A stretch of DNA of 64,000 nucleotides from Candidatus Bathyarchaeia archaeon (GCA_035935655.1 DASYWW010000062.1:62001-126000), one strand, 5' to 3'. Counted from the first letter of the stretch, positions 1,297-7,276 are shown. Numbers and translations are program-made. The notes: generated from the sequence alone by a model not told the origin.

Positions 1297-2580
1297 TTAC
1301 GCTTTGGACGTCAAAAGGTCTAGGTACGAGTGCGTTAGGATTTTTGTGACGCTCACTAGGTCGTTTATGCGTACGTGTTCGTCTATTCCGTGGATGTTGC
1401 TGTCGTGTCGCGTTGCGCCTATCACGGCTACGGGTATGCCTAGTTGGCTGACAACGGCCATGTCCGTCGACCCCTGACTACCAGCGGGCGATACATCCCG
1501 TCCCAGAACCTTTCTCGCCTGTTTCCTGACGACCTTGACAAGCTTGTGGTCGGGAGGTGTGACCATCGAATCAGTTCCGAGGATCTTCTTCATCGAAAAT
1601 TTCGCTGGACTGTTCTTTGCGAACTCTCTGACCACCCTGCCTATTTCCCTCTCGGCTTCTTCCTTCTTCTCTTCTGGAATGTACCGTCGATCGATAAGGA
1701 CCTCACACGTGTCGGGTATGATGTTGCCCTTCAACCCGCCCTTTATCATGTTCACGTAGAGGCCCGGTCGCATCTTCTTGGTCCCGTAGAACGCCTCCGC
1801 CGGTATCTTGGACCTTCTCTTCCCAATTTCTTTACCGAGAATTTTCAACCTCTCGATCAAACTGGCTGCCTCCTCTATCGCGTTGACACCAGACCAACCC
1901 CGCCCCGAATGAGCCGCCACACCTTTCACAGTAATGACGATGTTGGAATCGCCTAGACTCGCAACAACAAGAGACTCGATCCCACTATCAGTGGATATAC
2001 AATAATCGAAATCCTTCGTAATCACGTGCTTGTCGACTAGATGGTTGACGCCGGAGTACTCTCCCACCTCCTCGTCTGTGGTAAAAGTCAGGGTAATAGA
2101 TCCGGTAAACTTCGCCCCGGTCTCCACCAATGCCTTCAAAGAATAGACGAGACACGCGTCGGACCCCTTCATATCCGCCGCTCCCCGCCCGTAAATCTGC
2201 CCATTCCTTATCGTGGGCTCGAACGGATCATTAGTCCATCCCGTTGGGTTCGCGGGGACAACATCCACATGCCCATTGAGAAGTATCTTCGGGTCCGCAC
2301 TCTCGCCCTTGAGAGTCGCGTACGTATTCGGCCGTGGACCCTTGAGCCCCACATCAGGGCTAAACCTCCGCTTGACGGTTGCTTCCGGCGTAAGGCTTAC
2401 GGTAGGCGTAACGCCCAGGTCTTTGAGTTCCCTCGCAAGAACCTGCGAGATCTTCTGATAGTTCAGACCCGGGGGAACAGTAGTATCAATATTGATGAGA
2501 CGGCAAGTAAGATCGATTAGATCCTTTTTGTGAGCATCAATCCAGCTATCAACCTGTCTAACAACCGGTTGAGAAGGCAA
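1297..2580 (-). CDS. M20 family metallopeptidase/deacylase (ArgE/DapE/ACY1-like)
   Basis: Zinc-dependent amidohydrolase that would cleave an N-acyl amino acid or short peptide in the cytoplasm. At 427 residues it has normal family length. Metal and catalytic motifs are in place: GHVDVVP with H104 and D106, GRGAADMKG with D136, TTDEEVG with the general-base and metal glutamates at 170-171, an aspartate in STDSG near 198, and a final histidine in SNIHGIDEH. A dimerisation domain sits between about 215 and 325. Substrate cannot be told from sequence. The 5' end and the bases just upstream are duplicated near 4.2-4.4 kb next to the Lrp gene, suggesting that regulator and peptidase were once adjacent. 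Confidence 0.9.
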   Translation of the reverse strand: MPSQPVVRQVDSWIDAHKKDLIDLTCRLINIDTTVPPGLNYQKISQVLARELKDLGVTPTVSLTPEATVKRRFSPDVGLKGPRPNTYATLKGESADPKILLNGHVDVVPANPTGWTNDPFEPTIRNGQIYGRGAADMKGSDACLVYSLKALVETGAKFTGSITLTFTTDEEVGEYSGVNHLVDKHVITKDFDYCISTDSGIESLVVASLGDSNIVITVKGVAAHSGRGWSGVNAIEEAASLIERLKILGKEIGKRRSKIPAEAFYGTKKMRPGLYVNMIKGGLKGNIIPDTCEVLIDRRYIPEEKKEEAEREIGRVVREFAKNSPAKFSMKKILGTDSMVTPPDHKLVKVVRKQARKVLGRDVSPAGSQGSTDMAVVSQLGIPVAVIGATRHDSNIHGIDEHVRINDLVSVTKILTHSYLDLLTSKA

Positions 2581-2626
2581 ACAGCATCACGATGAAGCCT
2601 GATAACCATGTTAATTGTTCTTTCGG
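2421..2626. repeat. Left copy of ~206 bp imperfect direct repeat
   Basis: Matches 4225-4428 in the same orientation at an offset of about 1.8 kb, roughly three quarters identical by eye. It covers the first ~55 codons of the M20 gene and about 45 bases upstream. On the minus strand those upstream bases can be read as RLPKEQLT, nearly the C-terminus of the Lrp protein encoded at 4405-5331. Confidence 0.75.
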
Positions 2627-2655
2627 AAGCCGATGGTGCAATTTCGCTTCCTGGT

Positions 2656-3312
2656 CTATGGCCTTCGCACGGTACCTCCCGTACTGGGGACGTATTGAAC
2701 TGTACCTATGACGGGATTGAACCATGATTGAAATTCAGCCGGGTTGCTGATTGTTCTCATCGCGGCGAAAGCCTGTATCTGTGCAAGTGGGAATGCTTCA
2801 GCTAGCTTGTTCGCAGCCCCTAGGGCGGTCGCACCCCGCGTGATGATATCGTCAACCAGTAAGATTTGGGTCGGAGTGTCGGGGATACGCTTCTGAACGC
2901 TCATCGATGCAATATGGTCTTTGGCCTTCGGTCTCTCCGAGGGCCTGCTCCAGGCTGCCTTAGGTACGGGTGTTTCTCTGACAAGAAGCGGGATCGATTC
3001 TTTACCTAAGCCAACTTTCACTAGCGCGGTTGAAATCCGTTCAGGAACCCACAGAGAGTCACGCTGCATCAATGAGCTGCTTGGCAAAGGAACCAAGACA
3101 GAGGCGTCTCTAAAAAATGAAGCGAATGGCAGCCGTTCTCTGAGGTCGCGGACAGTTTCCGCGATCCATTGTGACGTCAGCTTAGGCGGGTTTCCGAAAT
3201 ACCTTTCAGCTTTGATCATCTTCATCAGTTCCCTTGCCTCGTCCATATCTGCCGATTCTCCTCGAGGAACGTAGCTAAGAAGTGACCCGTAATCAAGAAG
3301 CGTTATGCGCAC
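2656..3312 (-). CDS. ComF-like phosphoribosyltransferase
   Basis: Type I phosphoribosyltransferase fold. The PRPP-binding loop is clear near residues 150-165: ILLVDDIITRGATALGAA, with the paired aspartates and TRGAT turn expected of the family. An upstream VLVPLPSSS segment also matches ComF-type proteins. ComF proteins usually carry an N-terminal zinc ribbon, which is missing here. The start overlaps the 3' end of the DprA-like gene by 20 bases, so the two are co-translated. The reaction is unknown. The pairing with DprA suggests DNA uptake, DNA processing or nucleotide-based defence, but that is inference. Confidence 0.8.
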   Translation of the reverse strand: MRITLLDYGSLLSYVPRGESADMDEARELMKMIKAERYFGNPPKLTSQWIAETVRDLRERLPFASFFRDASVLVPLPSSSLMQRDSLWVPERISTALVKVGLGKESIPLLVRETPVPKAAWSRPSERPKAKDHIASMSVQKRIPDTPTQILLVDDIITRGATALGAANKLAEAFPLAQIQAFAAMRTISNPAEFQSWFNPVIGTVQYVPSTGGTVRRP

Positions 3313-4141
3313 GTTTCGGAACTTGCAGGACTACCTCACTTAGACTTTTGGATGATGGTAGTACTTCCAATACCTGTTTGGAGTCGTTGAGCACGGTGGC
3401 ACCGTAACTGATCATTCTCTTGGGCCAGCTCAATGAGGAGTCGTTGATGATGGCTTTCCAAATGAACAATGGTCGGCCCAGTCTCAGGGCTTCCCAACCT
3501 TGATGGAGTGACCCGCTGCTGTCTCCAGCTTCAACTATGATTGAAGCATTCGAAATGAGGGCCATGGTTCTGTTTCGAATGACGAAGTTCTTCCGCTGAA
3601 TGGGGTATCCTATTGGAAACTGCGAGATTGCAAGATGGTTCTTCATTATCTCGTTTTGAAGTTGCAGATTCTTCTGAGGATAGGTACGGTTCAGGGGTGT
3701 TCCAAGGACTGCAATAGTCTTTCCACCCTGCGAGATAGCGGTTTGGTGAGCCATCGTGTCGATGCCTTCAGCAAGACCGCTGACTATCACAACTTCGTGG
3801 TCTGTGAGTGTTTTTGTAATGCGGGCTGCGGCTGCTCGACCACGTTCTGAAGCCTTCCTTGAGCCAATGATGGCTGCTCTTGGTTTCGGAAGCGGGAGCC
3901 TCATTGAGCCGGCCGTGAAGATCTTCGAAGGGGCGTATTTTCTTTCAATATCGTTCAGTGGGCCTAAGAGTTCTAGAGGTGTGACTGCGACAATCTTGTA
4001 ATTTGAAGGGGTAACCATCGCGTTCGACTTAGGGTGATTAATGATTCTCCTATCCCATAAGGCAGTTTCAGTGCTCGTGAACGTTCCCGCTTGGTTACCA
4101 GACCTATTGCGGGCAGATATCACGACGCTTTTCAACTTCAA
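3293..4141 (-). CDS. dprA: DprA/Smf-like DNA-processing protein
   Basis: Rossmann-like DprA core: AAIIGSRKAS near residue 90, VVIVSGLAEGIDTMAHQTA, IAVLGTPLNRTYPQKN, then FVIRNRTMALISNASIIVEAG. In bacteria DprA loads RecA on incoming single strands; related proteins also appear in nucleotide-sensing defence modules. Most archaea lack natural-transformation genes, so the role here is open. The longest frame starts with TTG at 4141, but the probable TATA box at 4154-4163 would start transcription near 4136. GTG at 4123 or ATG at 4018 are then better starts, and 4018 still keeps the whole core. The gene heads a two-gene unit with the phosphoribosyltransferase. Confidence 0.85.
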   Translation of the reverse strand: MKLKSVVISARNRSGNQAGTFTSTETALWDRRIINHPKSNAMVTPSNYKIVAVTPLELLGPLNDIERKYAPSKIFTAGSMRLPLPKPRAAIIGSRKASERGRAAAARITKTLTDHEVVIVSGLAEGIDTMAHQTAISQGGKTIAVLGTPLNRTYPQKNLQLQNEIMKNHLAISQFPIGYPIQRKNFVIRNRTMALISNASIIVEAGDSSGSLHQGWEALRLGRPLFIWKAIINDSSLSWPKRMISYGATVLNDSKQVLEVLPSSKSLSEVVLQVPKRAHNAS

Positions 4142-4153
4142 TTTGGAAAGCTA

Positions 4154-4163
4154 TCATATTTAA
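4154..4163 (-). promoter_or_regulatory. Probable TATA box for the dprA-like gene
   Basis: On the minus strand the bases read CTTAAATATG, a good archaeal TATA element. It lies just outside the right repeat, so the dprA/phosphoribosyltransferase unit carries its own promoter. Confidence 0.5.
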
Positions 4164-4204
4164 GGTGATGAGGAGCCGGAAACCCAGAACGATCCCTGGA
4201 TTGC

Positions 4205-4377
4205 CTCTTGCTTAACACGGAGTTCTTTGAGCTCTCGAGCTAGAACCTGGGAGACCTTCGGACAGTTTAGACCTAGAAGAACAGTGGTATCAATACTAAC
4301 CAGGCGACAGGTAAGATCTACTAGATCCTTCTTGTGAGCATCAATCCAACGGTCAACCTGTCTTAGAACGGCTTAAG
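4205..4377 (-). pseudogene. Truncated N-terminal fragment of an M20 peptidase
   Basis: The minus strand can be read as RWIDAHKKDLVDLTC, then VSIDTTV, then VSQVLARELKEL. Each has an almost identical counterpart in residues 13-54 of the intact M20 protein at 1297-2580. A stop codon lies just upstream of the readable part, there is no start codon, and similarity ends after about 55 codons, before any catalytic residue. It lies directly downstream of the Lrp gene, the place an ancestral lrp-M20 pair would put it. Confidence 0.8.
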
Positions 4378-4428
4378 ACGGCAAAAGCTTCGCATTGAGC
4401 TGGGCTACGGTGTTAGTTGTTCTTTCGG
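4225..4428. repeat. Right copy of ~206 bp imperfect direct repeat
   Basis: Partner of 2421-2626. It contains the M20 pseudogene fragment and the last codons of the Lrp gene (LPKEQLTP then stop at 4405). Together the copies bracket the dprA and phosphoribosyltransferase genes. Confidence 0.75.
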
Positions 4429-5331
4429 TAGATGCTTCCCGATTTCTTCATCGAGCCAACGTCGCACCACCGTGTTGCCTCTCATCATGTCCATCTTCAC
4501 CTTCTCGACGCCGTCAAGCTCCTGGATCCAATTGTGAATGTTTTCCGCTTCGGAAATGTTCAGGCAGAGCATTGCATATATCGAAAATCCTTTAGCGTCA
4601 GTAAACGAGAACACGATCCTATCCGTCTTGGCACGCACAAGTCTGTCGACTTCCACTTTCTTCTTCGAATCGGGGCAGAAAACTAGAAAATCAGAGGCAA
4701 CGCCTGGGTACTTGTCATAGTCAAGCATCGGCAACAGATAGAAAGCCATCCCCTTCGTCAGGCCCGTTAGTCGCCTCTTCACTGTCCGGGTCGAGACCCC
4801 GACCTCTGCTGCTATTTCGGAAGGGCTTCTTCGGGGATCTTTCCTCAATGCCCTGATAATCTCCCAATCTGTCGCTTTGAGGTCCAGACTGGCCGGGGGA
4901 AAACCGCCCTTCCAAACAATCGCCTGATTGGTTTGACATATCGAATTGAATTCTCGAATTTTCCCCGCTAGATCTTGCTCGTCCTTGTGGTAGAATATTA
5001 CTCGCAGACCATTGCCGTGGAAATTGATCATGATCACGACGCCCTCCAACTGTTCAATCTGAGAAATCACCGAGGTCTTCCTGTCTTCCTTGTCTACGGT
5101 CAATTGCGCTCCCGCGGACTCGAGGCCTATTACGTGGGGGTTCAGCACAACCTGCCAGCCTTTGAGGAATCCGGATTCCCGGGCCCGGTTGATTCTCCTC
5201 CTAACAGTCTCCTCGTCAACTCCAATCCTTGCAGCAATGCTGCGGTAGGACTCTCGAATGTCCCATCGAAACGAACTGGGACTAGCCAATTCTTTCATTA
5301 TGCGAATGTCCAGGTCGACCGGGCGCTGCAA
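4405..5331 (-). CDS. Lrp/AsnC-family transcriptional regulator with two DNA-binding domains
   Basis: 308 residues, about twice the length of a simple Lrp protein. It has two winged-helix segments: one in the first 60 residues (DEETVRRRINRARESGFL) and one near 152-190 (SPSEIAAEVGVSTRTVKRRL). Each is followed by a region that could form a ligand-binding sensor. Tandem Lrp-like proteins of this kind are common in mesophilic archaea. It is divergent from the cupredoxin gene with 118 bases between them, so it may control that promoter. The 3' end lies inside the duplicated segment, which links it historically to the M20 peptidase. Confidence 0.85.
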   Translation of the reverse strand: MQRPVDLDIRIMKELASPSSFRWDIRESYRSIAARIGVDEETVRRRINRARESGFLKGWQVVLNPHVIGLESAGAQLTVDKEDRKTSVISQIEQLEGVVIMINFHGNGLRVIFYHKDEQDLAGKIREFNSICQTNQAIVWKGGFPPASLDLKATDWEIIRALRKDPRRSPSEIAAEVGVSTRTVKRRLTGLTKGMAFYLLPMLDYDKYPGVASDFLVFCPDSKKKVEVDRLVRAKTDRIVFSFTDAKGFSIYAMLCLNISEAENIHNWIQELDGVEKVKMDMMRGNTVVRRWLDEEIGKHLPKEQLTP

Positions 5332-6520: not shown

Positions 6521-7276
6521 ATGGTCGAGATATCTGTCGAGAACCTAACCAAGCACTATGACAAGCTGGTGGCCCTGGACAACGTCAGTCTAAAGATAGG
6601 TTCAGGCGAGGTCTTCGGGCTTCTCGGACCCAACGGTGCAGGCAAGAGCACTCTCCTGAAGATTATGGTCGGCATTCTCAGGCCGACAAGCGGGACAATC
6701 CGACTGGACGAGTTTGACATTGTTGCGGAGCCGGAGAAGGCGAAGAAGCTAATCGGGTACTTACCCGAGAATCCCAGCCTCTACACCGGCCTGACAACCC
6801 TAGAGTTTCTCCAGTTTGTCGGAAAGATTCGCGGAGTAGGAGATGATCTTCTTGACCAGGAGATTTCTGATCCGCTCAAGAGTTTCCAGTTGGAAGACAA
6901 GCGTAACAGTCTGGTTGGTAGCTTGTCGAAAGGGATGAAGCAGAAGGTTGCACTGATCGCTACGAGTCTCCATAATCCCAAGATTCTCGTTTTGGATGAG
7001 CCGTTGACGGCGTTGGATCCGAAGACTCGGGTCTCAGTGAAGGACTGGATTGACGGTCAGACGAGCAGAGGTGTGACGACGATCTTGTCAACTCACGACT
7101 TGGATGTTGCTCAGACCCATGCGGGGAGAATAGGCATCATCGATCATGGGAAGATTGTGGCGGTGGGAGATGTTGAGAGCCTTCGAAAAATGGCGAACAC
7201 ATCGAGCGATGCGAGATTGGAGGACGTGTTCTTACGGTTGACTGAGGAAAAGGGGGAGGAGCCGATCAAACACTGA
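6521..7276 (+). CDS. ABC transporter ATP-binding protein (CcmA/NatA type)
   Basis: ATPase subunit of an ABC-2 type exporter. Walker A is GPNGAGKST near residues 37-45, the signature is LSKGMKQK near 135, Walker B is ILVLDEP near 155 and the switch histidine lies in STHDLD. At 251 residues the length is normal. The permease follows 35 bases downstream. The substrate is unknown; such pairs export lipids, drugs or peptides. Confidence 0.93.
   Translation: MVEISVENLTKHYDKLVALDNVSLKIGSGEVFGLLGPNGAGKSTLLKIMVGILRPTSGTIRLDEFDIVAEPEKAKKLIGYLPENPSLYTGLTTLEFLQFVGKIRGVGDDLLDQEISDPLKSFQLEDKRNSLVGSLSKGMKQKVALIATSLHNPKILVLDEPLTALDPKTRVSVKDWIDGQTSRGVTTILSTHDLDVAQTHAGRIGIIDHGKIVAVGDVESLRKMANTSSDARLEDVFLRLTEEKGEEPIKH

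Follow-up and report, generated by a model that had tools for sequence, protein, structure and literature searches.

A ShosTA-like gene pair at the 5' end of an M20 peptidase gene in a Bathyarchaeia archaeon, probably passed between species by homologous recombination

How did a DprA-like gene and a phosphoribosyltransferase (PRT) gene come to lie between the two copies of a direct repeat, with an M20 peptidase gene on one side and an lrp gene on the other? The window analyzed here, a stretch of 64,000 nucleotides (GCA_035935655.1, DASYWW010000062.1:62001-126000; positions are counted from its first letter), comes from a soil archaeon related to Bathyarchaeota that is apparently uncultured. 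All on the minus strand are an intact M20 (ArgE/DapE-type) peptidase gene with a TTG start (1297-2580; PF01546, E = 8e-37; TIGR01910 above cut-off), orthologues of which are present in 13 relatives, the PRT gene (2656-3312), the dprA gene (3293-4141; PF02481, E = 3.6e-52), which overlaps the PRT gene by 20 nt, an M20 stub (4215-4428) and the gene of an Lrp/AsnC-type double-HTH regulator (4405-5331; PF13404, E = 3.5e-17). An ABC-transporter ATPase gene on the plus strand (6521-7276; PF00005) marks the right flank of the site. This agrees with the original prediction, which had placed DprA-like and phosphoribosyltransferase genes between an intact M20 on the left and a truncated M20 with an intact lrp on the right.

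The direct repeats of about 206 bp that the prediction described are real, although their content is the duplicated 5' end of M20 and not, as had been claimed, an lrp-M20 junction. They occupy 2406-2629 and 4210-4431, lie 1,804 nt apart and are matched by blastn at E of about 1e-39. The ungapped core (2406-2581 versus 4210-4385) shows 78% identity over 176 nt, and the similarity extends to 2629 and 4431. The duplicated part consists of the M20 promoter and about 58 M20 codons. In the left copy (2406-2629, minus strand), these are the promoter, the leader and the first ~58 codons of the intact M20; the lrp tail that had been seen there is roughly 20 nt of M20 promoter, and no lrp sequence exists in this copy. 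The right copy (4215-4428, minus strand; about 210 nt) is a dead stub of the resident M20, comprising the promoter and ~58 codons that are now non-coding, with an early TAA. The same M20-stub/dprA arrangement is found in two relatives, G014 and G009.

M20 upstream regions were aligned from eleven other genomes, and in most of them, exactly or with few changes, M20 is preceded by the element CCGAAAGAACAATTAA (2611-2626, minus strand, in the window; the second copy, CCGAAAGAACAACTAA, is at 4413-4428, minus strand). The element is kept in G005, G015, G012 and G014 and has few changes in G001, G016 and G008. Because it is conserved 5' of M20 even in genomes without an lrp neighbor, as most of those aligned are, CCGAAAGAACAATTAA is best read as the M20 promoter. 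When up to two mismatches were allowed, the 16-mer occurred at only two sites in the whole home genome, namely the two repeat copies. A duplicated lrp-M20 junction is ruled out by the alignment, and lrp touches M20 in none of the relatives examined. The last codons of the right-hand lrp (PKEQLTP-stop) read through the promoter of the stub; in G009, the final codons of a small gene unrelated to lrp likewise run through the M20 promoter (KEQLTR).

The ends of lrp in G012 and G014 have the form LPKRT(M/I)NIVT, encoded by CCGAAAAGAACAAT..., which is one base off the promoter sequence; the more distant lrp of G018 is without this tail. The nucleotide sequence at the lrp 3' end is CCGAAAAGAACAAT(T/G)AACAT (L043 8655-8694 in G012 and L044 10757-10796 in G014), nearly that of the M20 promoter, and the promoter adjoining M20 (or the stub) sits about 500 nt beyond it. 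A small orf region separates lrp from the M20 promoter in both genomes. The CCGAAAAGAACAAT stretch at the lrp end may have been left behind by an earlier insertion at this position, and two such short, near-identical stretches could explain why the window genome no longer has the small orf region between lrp and the M20 promoter.

As predicted, the two inserted genes have their own promoter. The segment joining the end of M20 homology to dprA (4142-4214, minus strand), which is common to the window genome (G000), G009 and G014, contains a TATA-like box, TTAAATATG, just 5' of dprA (4155-4163, minus strand). This box is kept in G014 and G009 and also stands, as CACCCTTAAATA, before the distant copy in G003, which is located elsewhere and not beside M20. 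Because the cassette has a TATA-like box of its own, the stub promoter need not drive it.

ShosTA, a toxin-antitoxin and anti-phage system, consists of a DprA protein and a PRTase (Rousset et al. 2022, PMC9122126). Against the PADLOC profiles, the DprA-family Rossmann protein of the window matched ShosA (E = 6.7e-73) with 244 bits, versus 177 bits for Pfam DprA and 151 bits for TIGR00732 (below the cut-off of 191), and its match to PsyrA was far poorer. The PRT matched ShosT (E = 2.2e-22, 78 bits) over residues 14-197, corresponding to profile positions 30-221 of 237. As controls, E. coli K-12 Smf scored in the reverse order (195 bits for ShosA, less than the 237 for Pfam DprA), E. coli YhgH, a ComF homologue, reached 27 bits on ShosT versus 78 for the PRT, and the plasmid DprA-PRT pairs of Paracoccus and Chryseobacterium (n = 2) scored like the archaeal pair. 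The PRPP-binding motif LVDDI(I/V)TRG was recognized in all six aligned PRT sequences (LVDDIITRG in the window). AlphaFold modeled the PRT with low confidence (pLDDT 61); the sole structural match of this model below E 0.001, H. pylori ComF (7p0h, prob 1.00), supports a PRTase fold and no more, and a PDB sequence search with the PRT alignment gave nothing below E 0.1. Wherever the PRT was found, at 21 loci in Bathyarchaeota, Nitrososphaerota and a few bacteria, the gene immediately upstream of it is dprA. The dN/dS ratios of the cassette genes (0.30 and 0.15) suggest that both are still under purifying selection. In short, the cassette resembles a two-gene module of the ShosTA type, in which the match of the PRT is modest and the function in archaea is assigned by homology only: from this we infer a toxin candidate or effector (PRT), an antitoxin or sensor candidate (DprA-like protein) and an antiviral role of the pair. 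The link to immunity that had been proposed for the two genes is borne out by the ShosA and ShosT matches, controls included.

The link to DNA uptake, also proposed, fared worse. According to this reading, dprA and the PRT gene would be an uptake module gained by insertion, in which DprA loads single-stranded DNA on a recombinase together with a ComFC-like partner, as the Pfam DprA match and the position of H. pylori ComF as the best structural neighbor of the PRT model would allow. However, ComEC (PF03772) was found in none of 41 genomes (the home genome and 40 relatives), versus 10 of 14 controls, and the competence reading is disfavored because of this absence. The PRT outscores the E. coli ComF homologue on ShosT by far and has no zinc-ribbon match, whereas YhgH gives weak double zinc-ribbon matches; the DprA protein fits ShosA better than the DprA profiles and, unlike Smf, matches neither a SAM nor a winged-helix domain; and the pair is found on bacterial plasmids. 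An uptake module is thus improbable. Among the papers searched, none dealt with DprA in Bathyarchaeota.

The site between M20 and the ABC-transporter gene differs widely among the relatives. In G017, M20 adjoins the transporter gene with nothing between. G012 has M20, a small orf, lrp, two small genes and the transporter, and the window genome has M20, PRT, dprA, the M20 stub, lrp, two small genes and the transporter. In G014, M20, PRT, dprA and the M20 stub are followed by a small orf region, a shortened lrp and the transporter, and G009 has dprA (the contig ends inside the gene), the M20 stub, another small gene, a small orf and the transporter. G004 has M20, an inverted dprA-PRT pair, a small orf region and the transporter. 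Because of these differing layouts, the M20-transporter spot must be regarded as variable; it therefore took in a dprA-PRT pair on two or more occasions, unless a single arrival was followed by an inversion and a long period of divergence. The pair of G004 (L045 2933-4309), at the same spot and in the opposite orientation, is divergent, with only 58-66% protein identity. The predicted insertion of two genes is supported by G012 (M20 and lrp with the same flanks) and G017, both of which are without dprA-PRT, and by a cassette far more similar than its flanks.

The PRT was recognized by its profile in 23 of the 398 genomes of the phylum (6%), and dprA in nine of 61 genomes (its own and relatives). 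In the DprA protein tree, the window genome, G009 and G014 group together (96/99), whereas G004, G003 and G018 form a second group (95/85); different lineages of the module are thus carried within one genus. At three of the 21 loci, the PRT is split over two frames (L078 2725-3356, L080 4405-5050 and L083 8010-8610), but the adjoining dprA is matched in one piece at every locus; this is the picture expected if the toxin half were being lost, and sequencing errors are also possible. In G018, a relative of dprA that is frameshifted in its middle part and stands without a PRT (L051 6398-7096) is apparently decaying. The modules of G003 (L046 4046-5221) and G007 (L047 7063-8241) lie a few kb from a gene for an AlkZ-like DNA glycosylase. 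A Pfam search for defense-island neighbors among ten proteins, eight of them neighbors of other copies, returned AlkZ-like glycosylases and a translation GTPase, the rest being unremarkable or unknown.

Divergence at synonymous sites indicates that the cassette has a history of its own. Between the window genome and G014, dS is 0.18 for dprA (bootstrap 0.13-0.24) and 0.31 for PRT (0.21-0.39), versus 0.75, 0.63, 1.00, 0.57, 0.86 and 0.91 for six neighboring genes, and between the window genome and G009 it is 0.14 for dprA versus 0.73 and 0.96 for the transporter genes. In three-segment fits, the window and G014 share a block of high identity from 4197 to 2745 (0.92; 0.77 and 0.79 outside it), and between G014 and G009 the identity is 0.53 up to the point where the coding part of the stub begins, and 0.92 from there on. 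G012, which is near G014 by its flanks, is without the cassette. With dS so far below that of the neighbors, the cassette appears to have moved horizontally between species by recombination rather than to have been inherited with them.

In the window genome, G009 and G014 alike, the stub has the same M20 breakpoint and continues with the same sequence into dprA (92-94% identity from this joint onward), whereas the stub leaders of the three show 54-60% mutual identity, no better than background. That the joint is shared and the sequence 5' of the stub is not argues that the 5' end of M20 served as a homology arm; homologous recombination inside the 5' coding part of M20 would let each recipient keep its own upstream sequence. 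The leader of the G014 stub, in contrast, has 93% identity with the leader of the intact M20 in G012. Leaders are non-coding and diverge fast, so the contrast in leaders depends mainly on this match of G014 with G012. The downstream M20 leaders of the window genome and G014 are just 70% alike, and other pairs 39-63%, except for 71% between the window stub and G001.

The transfer is not betrayed by base composition, as is expected between close relatives: inside and outside the repeats the overall GC content is alike (50.5% in the insert, 51.3% in the window), and only the GC3 of the cassette is lower (0.52-0.53 versus 0.61-0.66). An insert of foreign base composition was thus rejected. On the other side of the site, lrp of G012 and G014 (L043 8655-9587 and L044 10757-11491) has a dS of 0.13, versus 0.43-0.50 in M20, R7, R17 and R18, so that the lrp side, too, was exchanged recently.

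We consider it likely that a ShosTA-type cassette entered the 5' end of M20 and that homologous recombination later carried it from species to species. The cassette (promoter, shosA/dprA and shosT/PRT) would have entered M20 in this archaeal genus, leaving the promoter and a 58-codon M20 stub upstream of it and, on its downstream side, an intact M20 that has a promoter of its own. When the cassette was transferred again, the M20 coding sequence of the stub (about 170 bp) on one side and the downstream M20 gene on the other would act as homology arms, and recipients would keep their own sequence upstream of the stub. By homology, ShosT would be a PRPP-binding phosphoribosyltransferase toxin that is checked by the DprA-like sensor ShosA and freed on viral infection. 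The later movement of the cassette is best explained by homologous exchange; the direction of transfer and the type of the first crossover we infer.

For that first event, none of the genomes sampled has the layout expected of a donor, in which the PRT lies upstream of M20 and no stub is present, so the event itself is unseen. The predicted integration of a circle by a single crossover can stand for this step, and insertion of linear DNA fits equally well. A circle carrying the M20 5' end and dprA-PRT, integrated in the manner of Campbell and followed by the same later history, produces precisely the layout observed, in which the cassette lies between direct repeats of the M20 5' end and M20 is intact. 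However, the 1.6 kb between the copies holds two genes only and no plasmid or viral gene, the PRT is absent from viral contigs and phage records, and homology-facilitated illegitimate insertion, with one homologous and one illegitimate joint, explains the layout equally well; integration of a circle is therefore possible but on the doubtful side. An origin from a virus or phage was rejected for want of any PRT match in viral contigs or phage records, and none of the PRT relatives on plasmids reaches 60% identity. The layout of stub, cassette and intact gene is also what a tandem duplication of M20 in an ancestor would leave, had dprA-PRT replaced most of one copy and been inherited vertically since; but the cassette dS is about two to five times below that of the neighbors in the same genomes, the near relative of G014 has no cassette, and the stub leaders are not common to the three genomes, all of which makes such a history very improbable. 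An assembly artefact in this metagenome-assembled genome (65 contigs, 4.5% estimated contamination) can be given almost no weight, as the repeat copies differ by 22% and the same M20-stub/dprA joint exists in the independent assemblies of G014 and G009.

If a ShosTA-type cassette was passed on in this way, the locus would be a well-resolved example of a small defense module moving between species without a mobility gene, by ordinary recombination at a housekeeping gene. We suggest only tentatively, and rate as rather unlikely, that the cassette is a passively mobile defense unit that spreads by cell-to-cell homologous recombination alone, the M20 repeats being both its entry arms and a means of clean excision that restores M20; if true, defense would be gained and lost without any transposase or integrase. 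The analysis also places ShosTA-like pairs in both Bathyarchaeota and Nitrososphaerota, two groups in which a DprA homologue might otherwise be mistaken for a competence gene.

Among known systems, DprA and ComFC of natural transformation (PMC9005727) belong to the same two superfamilies, whereas the host of the window pair has no ComEC, its PRT has no zinc-ribbon match and profile scores favor ShosTA. RqlHI and PsyrTA likewise pair a DprA-like protein with a PRTase-domain protein that it restrains; in RqlHI, however, a RecQ-like helicase carries the PRTase as its C-terminal domain (PMC4670107), unlike the free-standing PRT of 218 aa in the window, and PsyrTA differs in that PsyrA is matched far worse than ShosA. 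A related PRTase domain is genotoxic when its DprA-like partner does not hold it back (PMC4670107). ShosTA protects E. coli against phages T7 and lambda, with DprA proposed as a sensor of phage DNA that switches on the PRTase effector (PMC9122126); activation by a phage single-stranded-DNA-binding protein has also been reported (PMC10732053). The window pair is like ShosTA in its adjacent DprA-like and phosphoribosyltransferase genes, its patchy occurrence at a variable chromosomal spot and its PADLOC ShosA/ShosT matches, and differs in belonging to the Bathyarchaeota/Nitrososphaerota group, in its archaeal promoter and in its site at the M20 5' end. Because ShosTA is already listed for Asgard archaea (PMC11291487), its occurrence in archaea as such is not new; what is new is an archaeal member of a known defense family with an unusually clear history of transfer.
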